A DNA stretch of 64,000 nt from an uncultured Bryobacteraceae bacterium (GTDB lineage: Bacteria > Acidobacteriota > Terriglobia > Bryobacterales > Bryobacteraceae): assembly GCA_938027685.1 (NCBI GenBank), contig CALJAM010000009.1:62001-126000 (forward strand). The letters are read 5' to 3'. The translations under genes were made by a program, and so were the position numbers. Within the stretch, counting starts at the first letter, position 1; every line of letters starts with the position of its first letter. Shown in pieces: positions 876-44,391 of the stretch. The notes beneath the pieces were generated by a model that saw only the letters and a program-made list of their open reading frames with translations, was not told the origin of the DNA and ran no database searches.

Positions 876-1889
876 TCAAGGGATCAGCCCCCGCCGGCGC
901 AGCGCCGCCTGTAGCAGCGGCTCGATGTGCGCGCGGAGTGTTTGGTTCGCGTAGCCGACCCAGGCCACGTCCGCCTCGACGCACAGCGGCGCCTGCAAAG
1001 GGCCGCCCCGCTCGTCGGTGACGATGACGCCTGCCTCGCGCGCGATCAATTCGGCGGCCAGATCGTAGGGATGACAGCAAAGCCCGAGCGCTTGGCCCCG
1101 CTGCTCGAGCACAGGCCGCATGAGAGGACGCAGGTCCGCCACAAAGCGATCGTGCCCCATCATCAGCTCGTAAAGTTGACCGCCGCTGGAAATGTACTGG
1201 TCTTCGAAGCAGGCCGCCTTGCCGGGCGCCGTCGGGCCGACGGCGGCGCGCGCGATCTCGTCGTCGATGGCCGCCAGCTCGTCGCGGGCGCCGGGGAAAA
1301 ACCGGACGACGGTGGCGAAGCCGTGTGCGATGGTCGCGGCCCGCGAAGGGCGGGGAGCGAGCGGAATGCGCTCTCCGGTCAAGCGATTCCAGCGCTCGCC
1401 GCTAACCCCCGCGCCCCGGACGCACCAGAACATATCAGCCAAATGTTGTTTTAGCAGGGGAATCTCGGTCTGGACCGCCAGCTCGATGTCGGCCAGGGTG
1501 GTCGCGGCGCCGAGGTTGGGCGCGACGCCGGTAAGTATCCAGCCGCTGCGCTTCTGGTACATGAGACCGCGCGTGCCGTCGATGGGATCCACGATCAGGC
1601 GCCAGCGCGCCTCGGCTTCGGGGGCTCCGCAGGGCAGCGCGATCCGCCCGCGAGGCAAGCCCTCCGCGATGAGCACCAGGGGCAGATGTGCGGACAGCTC
1701 CTCTTCCACGAGCCTAACGAGCGTCTCTTCGCCGATGCGGTCCACTGCGTAGATGGTGTCGCCTTCGTCGTCACGCGCCACGGCAGCCAGCTCTTCGGCC
1801 GCAGCCTCTTCGAAAGCGGAGAGAATCCGCGCGCGAAGTCGCTCGTGCATCCGCCGCAAGCCGGTCAGCAGGTCAGCGGCGTCAGCCAT
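876..1889 (-). CDS. Inositol monophosphatase-family phosphatase
   Basis: A 337-residue member of the metal-dependent FIG/inositol monophosphatase superfamily. The signature is DPIDGTRG near residue 115, and the second motif appears as [14 protein letters not shown] near the C-terminus, where usual members read WDxAAG. The [11 protein letters not shown] stretch corresponds to the region carrying the upstream metal-binding acid. I place the start at the ATG at 1889, which overlaps the 3' end of galT by eight bases and so suggests translational coupling; an in-frame upstream start would lie inside galT. The gene sits between galT and galE, so a sugar-phosphate or sugar-nucleotide side reaction is plausible. 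The substrate cannot be read from sequence. It is longer than a typical 260-residue inositol monophosphatase. Confidence 0.85.
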
Positions 1890-15551: not shown

Positions 15552-15627
15552 TGGAGCGGGAGACGGGACTCGAACCCGCGACATCGACCTTGGCAAGGTC
15601 GCACTCTACCAACTGAGTTACTCCCGC
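15552..15627 (-). tRNA. tRNA-Gly (GCC anticodon)
   Basis: On the minus strand a complete 76-base cloverleaf can be drawn. The acceptor stem GCGGGAG pairs with CTCCCGC, the D arm reads ACTC-AGTTGGTA-GAGT, the anticodon stem CGACC/GGTCG holds the loop TTGCCAA with anticodon GCC, and the T arm has the invariant TTCGAGT loop. The discriminator base is T and CCA is encoded in the genome. A TTGACA/CAAAAT promoter lies just upstream at 15639-15668. It stands alone, with no tRNA neighbour. Confidence 0.97.
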
Positions 15628-42527: not shown

Positions 42528-42842
42528 ATGCCTGAAGAGTCCGGCGGAAAGCGCCCGGTTCGCGTCACTATCCTGGATCAAACCTACACTCTGCTGGCGG
42601 CGGGGGACGAGCGCGAAGTCCAGGAACTCGCCGATTCCGTGAATCAGCTCATGGCCGCGATCGCCGCGCGCTGTCCTAAGGCCGACGACCTCCGCGTCGC
42701 CGTCTTGGCCTGCCTTCACCTGGCGGACCGGCTGCGGGCGCTAGAACGCGAGCTCGAGGAATTCCGCCGCCGCGTCGAGCAAAAGAGCCGCACTTTCGGC
42801 CTTCTGCTGGAGGAAGCGATCCGCTCCGAGCCCCGGTCCTGA
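42528..42842 (+). CDS. zapA: Cell division protein ZapA
   Basis: A 104-residue FtsZ-associated protein that promotes bundling of FtsZ filaments at the Z ring. VRVTILDQTYTLLAAGDEREVQELADSVNQLM is the globular N-terminal domain, and the LADRLRALERELEEFRRRVEQKS C-terminal helix forms the dimer coiled coil. It follows the coiled-coil gene. In many bacteria zapA is next to the 6S RNA gene; the spacer here has strong hairpins. Confidence 0.9.
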   Translation: MPEESGGKRPVRVTILDQTYTLLAAGDEREVQELADSVNQLMAAIAARCPKADDLRVAVLACLHLADRLRALERELEEFRRRVEQKSRTFGLLLEEAIRSEPRS

Positions 42843-43045
42843 GGACTCGGATTTGCGGATACAAGGGCCTGCAATGTCTCTTGCGTTTCCCTGATTCCCT
42901 GGATTATCTTTTGGAATGGCCTGCCGCAGGCTCGCCCGGCCTGCGGGCAGTTGAACTTCTTGGGTTGTCCCCGAGCGCTGCGGGGACAGGGAGTGGACGA
43001 GGAACCCGTCCCGGGCTGAAGCTCGGGCGGCGGAGAAGAAAGGCC
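42843..43045 (+). ncRNA. Candidate structured RNA or leader between zapA and gltA
   Basis: No gene is seen in these 203 bases. Three stable hairpins follow each other at 42921-42950 (10 pairs, one bulge), 42966-42988 (eight perfect pairs, TGTCCCCG/CGGGGACA) and 43006-43030 (10 pairs with a TGAA loop). None ends in a T run. The size would fit a 6S RNA, which often lies after zapA, but I could not draw the 6S fold with confidence. A gltA leader is the alternative. Confidence 0.35.
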
Positions 43046-44335
43046 ATGGGGAACGACACGCTGACTATTACCGACAATCGCACGAACGCAACGTATACGA
43101 TCCCGATCAAGGACGGCGCCATCCGCGCCATGGATCTCAGGCAAATTAAGACCGGTCCGGACGATTTCGGGCTGATGAGCTATGATCCGGCCTTCATGAA
43201 CACGGCCTCCTGTCGGAGCGCCATCACCTTCATTGACGGTGATCGCGGCATTCTTCGCTATCGCGGTTATCCCATCGAACAACTCGCCGAAAACTGCCGC
43301 TTCCTGGAGGTCGCCTACTTGATCCTGAACGGCGAGCTGCCCACAGCCAAGCAGCTTGCCGACTTCGAAGCGCAGATCAAGGCTGAGCTGGCGGTGCCGG
43401 AAAACATCAAGCGCATCATCGAGGGTTTCCACCATGATGCGCACCCGATGGCGGTGCTGGCCAGCACGCTGGCCGCGCTGTCGACTTTTTATCCCGACGC
43501 CAAGAAGGTGCGGGACCCGGCCAACCGCCGCAAGCAGATCATCCGTCTGATCGCCAAAGTTCCGACACTGGCCGCCTACTTTTATCGTTACAGCCGCGGC
43601 TTGCCCTACGTCGACCCGGATCCCAGGCTCAGCTACACGGGCAACTTCATGAAGATGCTCTGGAAGGGGCTCGAGCCGGAGTACGAGGTGAATCCGGTGG
43701 TCGAGCGCGCCCTGGACATCCTCTTCATTCTGCACGCCGACCACGAGCAGAATTGCAGCGCCAACGCGATGCGCAGTGTCGGCAGCTCGGAGGCCGACCC
43801 CTACGTCTGCGCAGCCGCGGCTACCGCTGCCCTCTTCGGTCCCCTGCACGGCGGCGCCAACGAGCAGGTGTTGCGCATGCTTGACGAGATCGGCTCGGTG
43901 GAGAACATTCCCGCCTACATCGAGGACGTCAAGAACCGCAAGCGCCTGCTGATGGGCTTCGGCCACCGCATTTACAAGAACTACGATCCGCGCGCCCGCA
44001 TCATCAAACAGACCGCCGACAAGGTGTTCGAGGTCACCGGGCGCAATCCCAAGCTCGACATCGCGCTCGAGCTGGAGCGCATTGCGCTCTCCGACGAATA
44101 CTTCATCTCGCGCAAGCTCTATCCCAACGTGGATTTCTACTCCGGAATCATTTACCAGGCGCTTGGTTTCCAGCCGGAGATCTTCACCGTGCTGTTCGCC
44201 ATCCCGCGCATGACCGGCTGGTGTGCTCAATGGGACGAACTCATGGGTGATCCGGAGCAAAAGATCGCTCGGCCGCGGCAGGTCTACATCGGCCACGGAC
44301 ACCGAGAATTCGTTCCCATGGACAAGCGCGGCTGA
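43046..44335 (+). CDS. gltA: Citrate synthase
   Basis: Condenses oxaloacetate and acetyl-CoA to start the citric acid cycle. The 429-residue protein has active-site His in HADHEQNCSANAMR and in GPLHGGANEQVL, with GFGHRIYKNYDPRARI and FAIPRMTGWCAQWDEL further on. The length fits the larger (type II) bacterial class. The frame is open upstream for 55 codons, but the family N-terminus and GGAGAAGAAAGG ribosome binding site fix the start at 43046. A clear terminator follows at 44363. It lies after zapA across a 203-base structured spacer. Confidence 0.96.
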   Translation: MGNDTLTITDNRTNATYTIPIKDGAIRAMDLRQIKTGPDDFGLMSYDPAFMNTASCRSAITFIDGDRGILRYRGYPIEQLAENCRFLEVAYLILNGELPTAKQLADFEAQIKAELAVPENIKRIIEGFHHDAHPMAVLASTLAALSTFYPDAKKVRDPANRRKQIIRLIAKVPTLAAYFYRYSRGLPYVDPDPRLSYTGNFMKMLWKGLEPEYEVNPVVERALDILFILHADHEQNCSANAMRSVGSSEADPYVCAAAATAALFGPLHGGANEQVLRMLDEIGSVENIPAYIEDVKNRKRLLMGFGHRIYKNYDPRARIIKQTADKVFEVTGRNPKLDIALELERIALSDEYFISRKLYPNVDFYSGIIYQALGFQPEIFTVLFAIPRMTGWCAQWDELMGDPEQKIARPRQVYIGHGHREFVPMDKRG

Positions 44336-44362
44336 GCAGGGTCGTTCCGGCGTCCGCGTGAG

Positions 44363-44391
44363 GGCCGCCCGACAAGCGGGCGGCCTTTTTT
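44363..44391 (+). terminator. Rho-independent terminator after citrate synthase
   Basis: GGCCGCCCG at 44363-44371 pairs with CGGGCGGCC at 44377-44385 around a five-base loop, followed by six T residues. It ends the gltA transcript. On the minus strand no T run follows, so it serves the plus strand only. Confidence 0.9.

Follow-up and report, generated by a model that had tools for sequence, protein, structure and literature searches.

The zapA-gltA spacer and its question

The window, the whole 64,000-nucleotide stretch of Bryobacteraceae DNA analysed here, carries a GC-rich (70%) spacer of 203 bases (42843-43045) between the genes for ZapA and citrate synthase, and the question is what this spacer encodes. 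A sequence-only reading had placed three consecutive hairpins in it and proposed either a 6S RNA gene or a leader controlling citrate synthase. Upstream lies zapA (42528-42842, plus strand), a 104-amino-acid ORF matching Pfam ZapA (PF05164, E 7.8e-15), with relatives in 57 of 61 genomes and 58 matches in all. Downstream lies gltA (43046-44335, plus strand; PF00285), which starts with an ATG at 43046 and encodes a 429-amino-acid product exceeding the cut-offs of both NCBIfam citrate synthase models, NF004126 and TIGR01798; relatives were found in 147 of 150 family genomes.

Ten nucleotides upstream of the gltA ATG, the plus-strand motif GGAG (43032-43035) is, judged by its sequence, a probable Shine-Dalgarno element. 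A strong intrinsic terminator with a 12-pair stem followed by a T-run (44360-44388, plus strand) directly follows gltA. Since the terminator scan found none on the plus strand of the spacer and a strong one behind the gene, gltA looks like a transcription unit of its own, possibly with read-through from zapA. The open frame preceding 43046 was considered as an N-terminal extension of gltA and rejected, because single-base indels among the three genomes of the genus break this frame and its end points differ (551, 504 and 458 codons).

Search for 6S RNA

The order zapA-ssrS has been reported for beta- and gamma-proteobacteria (PMC7641849) and also for Alcanivorax (PMC9788540). That the spacer encodes 6S RNA in the same manner fits its size and position, and the covariance search with RF00013 that the sequence-only reading had suggested found no 6S match in 42600-43400 at E≤10. 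Nor did RF00013 match anywhere in the 64-kb window at gathering score, or in the whole genome of the window at E≤0.001. At gathering score, Rfam matches nothing in the window but a tRNA (15555-15627), and no known riboswitch aptamer class was found there. Over the hairpins, a sub-threshold match to the snoRNA sR22 (20.1 bits against a cut-off of 40, E 0.16) is taken as chance.

RF00013 matches 61 of 101 family genomes at E≤0.001, 19 of them over the Rfam cut-off. From an alignment of 28 family 6S genes found with RF00013, a family 6S model (R1) was built. Searching the genus genomes with R1 gave one strong 6S RNA in each, on a contig other than that of zapA-gltA in all three. The 6S RNA of the window's genome (G000) is at G000:C24:87783-87973 with 114.5 bits, and those of the other two genomes are on G001:C99 (113.3 bits) and G002:C261 (121 bits). 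Scored against RF00013, the G000 gene (locus L175:1501-1691) reaches 26.1 bits, below the Rfam cut-off of 46.4; it directly precedes a ymdB gene (PF13277, E 8.5e-106).

Across the window, R1 reached 6.8 bits at best, and with filters off in 42700-43200 its best match was 9.1 bits on the minus strand at 42815-42864, partly within zapA. The flanks (≤1.5 kb) of 30 zapA loci, all in the family and drawn from the 58 zapA matches, were also searched with R1 and held no 6S RNA, with a best score of 12.7 bits; contig ends shortened the flanks of L002, L011, L025, L027 and L029. Five 6S control loci in this search, none of them used in building R1 and three originally found by it, scored 113-157 bits. 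Among 24 genomes with both zapA and 6S matches, the two were on different contigs in 21 and at least 19 kb apart on the same contig in three, although draft-genome contigs cannot rule out every adjacency.

The fold also differs. 6S RNA forms one long rod with a central bubble, whereas the spacer stems that recur in the genus are short and separate, and the consensus folds lack such a rod. A 6S gene in the spacer is thus refuted by Rfam, by the family model and by the location of the genome's 6S RNA on another contig, and as an explanation of the locus it is hardly tenable. The zapA-ssrS order of the proteobacteria does not carry over to this Bryobacteraceae genome. Guessing 6S RNA from the gap behind zapA fails in the family because 6S sits away from zapA and often scores below the cut-off. 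This placement, apart from zapA wherever both could be placed, is a firmer result than the gltA leader discussed below.

Three hairpins and their folding energy

Inverted-repeat and folding analyses bore out the three hairpins of the sequence-only reading, all on the plus strand. Hairpin 1 (42921-42950 including its outer pairs) contains a perfect 8-bp inverted repeat, 42924-42931/42939-42946; hairpin 2 (42966-42988) is a perfect 8-bp stem, 42966-42973/42981-42988; and hairpin 3 (43006-43030) has a stem that forms in all three genus genomes when folded alone. When the window's leader is folded alone, hairpins 1, 2 and 3 all form. When the entire spacer is folded, the optimal structure contains hairpins 1 and 3, but an arm of hairpin 2 pairs upstream instead.

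The fold energy of the whole spacer is ordinary (z 0.24, with 117 of 200 shuffles as stable), and that of 42863-43046 gives z -0.81. Folded locally, the three genus genomes give z values of -1.7, -1.16 and -2.94. The local folding strength of the spacer is reached in the 64 kb by 30 windows out of 1452 and, when GC content is matched, by 10 out of 417. Twelve separate perfect hairpins (stem 8, loop 3-9; 13 rows, one nested) occur in the window, two of them in the spacer. Some unrelated gltA upstream regions are equally structured, among them L057 (z -3.83) and L066 (z -2.65). By single-sequence energy, the structure of the spacer is only weakly above chance. Chance hairpins with no function in a GC-rich spacer would account for the ordinary whole-spacer energy and for the GC-matched windows that fold as strongly. 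The comparative evidence is better than the energy, as each of the three genus genomes allows all three stems to be drawn.

Conservation within the genus

The genus comparison comprised three genomes, G000, G001 and G002. All three keep the order zapA-spacer-gltA, with a spacer of 202-205 bases, and conservation in close relatives, whose absence the sequence-only reading had named as a refutation, was found for a promoter-like block, with three stems drawable in each of them. The block, at 42881-42918, shows good conservation and reads TTGC(G/T)T-N18-TATCTT-TTGGRATG in all three genomes, one base shorter in G002; in each it adjoins hairpin 1 on the 5' side. Its -35-like element (42881-42886, plus strand) is TTGCGT, TTGCTT and TTGCGT in the three genomes and too weak for a consensus promoter scan. 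The -10-like TATCTT (42905-42910, plus strand) follows at an 18-base spacing in all three and was sub-threshold in that scan. The block looks like a promoter, with a predicted transcription start near 42916-42918.

Over the window's hairpins, 35 of 58 paired columns are invariant across the three genomes against 11 of 52 unpaired ones (p 4e-5). Leaving out hairpin 1, 28 of 36 paired columns are invariant (p 2.2e-7), and leaving out hairpin 3, 18 of 38 (p 0.012); these p-values are rough, since related sequences yield columns that depend on one another. The difference comes from hairpins 2 and 3: in hairpin 3, near the ribosome site, 17 of 20 arm positions are invariant and none of the four loop positions, and the arms of hairpin 2 are invariant at 11 of 16 positions. 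Those of hairpin 1 are invariant at 7 of 22, little above the unpaired bases (11/52). This excess of paired over unpaired conservation argues against chance hairpins.

Covariation and consensus folds

Compensatory changes, which the sequence-only reading had proposed to look for, were found in part: two pairs of hairpin 2 changed on both sides and still pair (U-A/G-C and C-G/G-C), but the covariation term of RNAalifold for the whole leader is unfavourable (+1.44) with n=3. Hairpin 1 shows one C-G to G-C change in a hand alignment. The U-G/C-G difference in hairpin 3 across the genus is less telling because that U is unpaired in the window's own best fold.

Local consensus energy (pair span ≤40, automatic alignment) gave z -2.86, and 2 of 500 column shuffles attained the observed energy. 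With the hand alignment, which favours hairpin 1 and the structure, it gave z -4.71 and no column shuffle was as good. The named structure pairs in 85% of cells against 36-53% for slid controls. Letter shuffling reached the observed pair-count values in 46-116 of 500 trials, and one of the slid controls showed two two-sided changes, as many as the named structure. In the unrestricted RNAalifold fold of the whole leader, hairpin 2 is recovered and parts of hairpins 1 and 3 are paired otherwise; the span-limited consensus fold deviates at hairpin 3, and in the unconstrained fold of G001 hairpin 1 is not formed. Taken together, these tests support hairpin 2 well, hairpin 3 by its conservation and hairpin 1 weakly.

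The weak pair-shuffle control and consensus fold would suit hairpins without function, as would a leader not seen beyond the genus, and the column-shuffle test stands against it along with the conservation of paired columns. We regard chance hairpins as unlikely, though still worth weighing.

The same changes bear on a further explanation, in which the inverted repeats are DNA operators bound by dimeric regulators. Not far downstream of the promoter-like block, hairpin 2 forms a near-perfect palindrome, and compensatory changes preserve the symmetry of the DNA just as they preserve pairing in RNA. An operator is expected to retain its sequence and spacing; the half-sites of hairpin 2, however, change across the genus, and in G002 its repeat is 26 bases long instead of 23. 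Operators are accordingly judged quite unlikely.

A possible leaderless mini-ORF

An ATG is found 4-5 nt downstream of the -10-like element in all three genus genomes and opens ORFs of 12, 13 and 14 codons. In the window this possible leaderless mini-ORF of 12 codons (42916-42954, plus strand) starts at the expected transcription start. An attenuator-type switch could be built on it: a leaderless peptide, whose ORF would open at the message's first base and close downstream of hairpin 1, would couple translation to the folding of hairpins 2 and 3. Alternative pairings for such a switch can be drawn, since in the window sequence the hairpin-2 arm at 42970-42976 has a second possible partner in hairpin 3 (43021-43027), and the whole-spacer fold gives a hairpin-2 arm another partner upstream. 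The three peptides, however, are unlike one another and lack any stretch of a repeated control amino acid, the leader has no intrinsic terminator, the transcription start is a predicted one, and the alternative pairing with hairpin 3 was examined in one of the three genomes, that of the window. The leaderless-peptide switch is given little weight because the peptides do not resemble each other, and an attenuator of this type appears improbable. Very improbable, in our estimate, is its genus-specific variant, an RNA switch without a classical terminator in which translation of the 12-14-codon peptide would decide how the hairpins fold and hence the amount of gltA product.

How far the proposed leader extends

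A profile of the gltA leader was made from the genus (R2). Among 237 family genomes, R2 scored 115-130 bits in the three of the genus, and in the 234 others it gave two matches only (E 0.02 and 0.045), which are treated as noise; weak relatives could be missed because this search had stricter filters, with 14 candidates scored per listed genome. In 38 other gltA loci (at most 37 distinct ones, L059 and L064 being the same record), R2 gave no match on the gltA strand just upstream of gltA; weak matches were three at L052 (E 0.0033, 0.016 and 2) and one at L072 (E 0.36). No consensus structure emerged from a 12-sequence alignment of other gltA upstream regions. The neighbourhood is restricted likewise: gltA lies in the flank of zapA at 3 of 30 zapA loci, just the three genus members. 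On this evidence, the gltA leader appears to be genus-specific. A repeated palindromic element was also considered and rejected, as R2 finds the leader just once in its genome (next match E 0.49).

A different element, about 110-190 nt 5' of the gene and roughly of the form GGTGGG-N-CACCCA-N-GCTTGCGTGAAAAGCCCC, is common to many other gltA loci of the family, namely L038, L039, L042, L043, L045, L046, L047, L050, L054, L055 and L059. Most of these loci add a block nearer gltA, like ACATTCRGGTGTGGAAATC-N-GTGCA. Rfam gave no match over the element in any of the eight loci scanned out of these 11, and the element was not seen ahead of the window's gltA. At one of these loci, L042, a group II intron RNA (RF02005, 166 bits) lies shortly behind gltA (1148-1371, minus strand).

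The probable gltA leader and its proposed role

On balance, we consider it somewhat probable that the spacer consists of a promoter and a structured 5' leader of about 130 nt, restricted to the genus, that sets the stability or translation of the gltA message. Observed are a set of hairpins that recurs in the genus, a promoter-like block ahead of them, a leader with no intrinsic terminator and the terminator after gltA. The start of transcription, action as an RNA and a stabilising or translational role are what we infer from them. The second proposal of the sequence-only reading, a gltA leader, therefore holds for its anatomy (a promoter-like block, recurring stems with some compensatory changes and adjacency to gltA in all three genomes), and control of citrate synthase is its conjectural part.

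According to this model, RNA polymerase would start near 42916-42918, the leader would fold as successive hairpins, and the Shine-Dalgarno element, 3' of hairpin 3, would be at least half open; transcription would stop at the terminator behind gltA. In the predicted folds of the three genus genomes, the ribosome site has a mean unpaired probability of 0.47-0.66 over positions -14 to -5, and that of the gltA start codon varies from 0.21 to 0.86. The hairpins would most likely shield the message at its 5' end and pace ribosome loading, and so influence citrate synthase output. That they would affect message stability or ribosome loading is suggested by their predicted position at the 5' end and beside, not over, the ribosome site. 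Most likely, the citrate synthase message simply begins with a structured stretch of an ordinary kind.

Comparison with known systems

Leader-peptide attenuators include leaderless ones, such as S. meliloti trpL. Like the gltA leader, they have a short ORF at the start of the message followed by hairpins; unlike them, the gltA leader has no U-run terminator, no run of control codons and no conserved peptide. 6S RNA (RF00013, ssrS) resembles the spacer in following zapA in beta- and gamma-proteobacteria and in its similar length, and differs in that the spacer matches neither Rfam nor the family 6S model. In the part of the literature covered on gltA leaders and riboswitches, 6S RNA in connection with zapA or Acidobacteria, structured Acidobacteria RNAs, control of gltA by sRNAs and leaderless leader peptides, no comparable gltA leader was found.

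Three RNA candidates from Acidobacteria, Acido-1, Acido-Lenti-1 and Solibacter-1, are listed in a table of PMC2864571. Acido-1 and Acido-Lenti-1, both with Rfam numbers, gave no match to the gltA leader in the Rfam scans, and Solibacter-1 stands without an Rfam number in that table. The same source presents sucA-II and sucC, structured leaders named after citric-acid-cycle genes, as candidate cis-acting RNAs; they differ from the gltA leader in gene and taxon, and the Rfam scans gave no match to them. If the gltA leader is regulatory, it would make citrate synthase a target of cis-acting RNA in Acidobacteriota-type bacteria.
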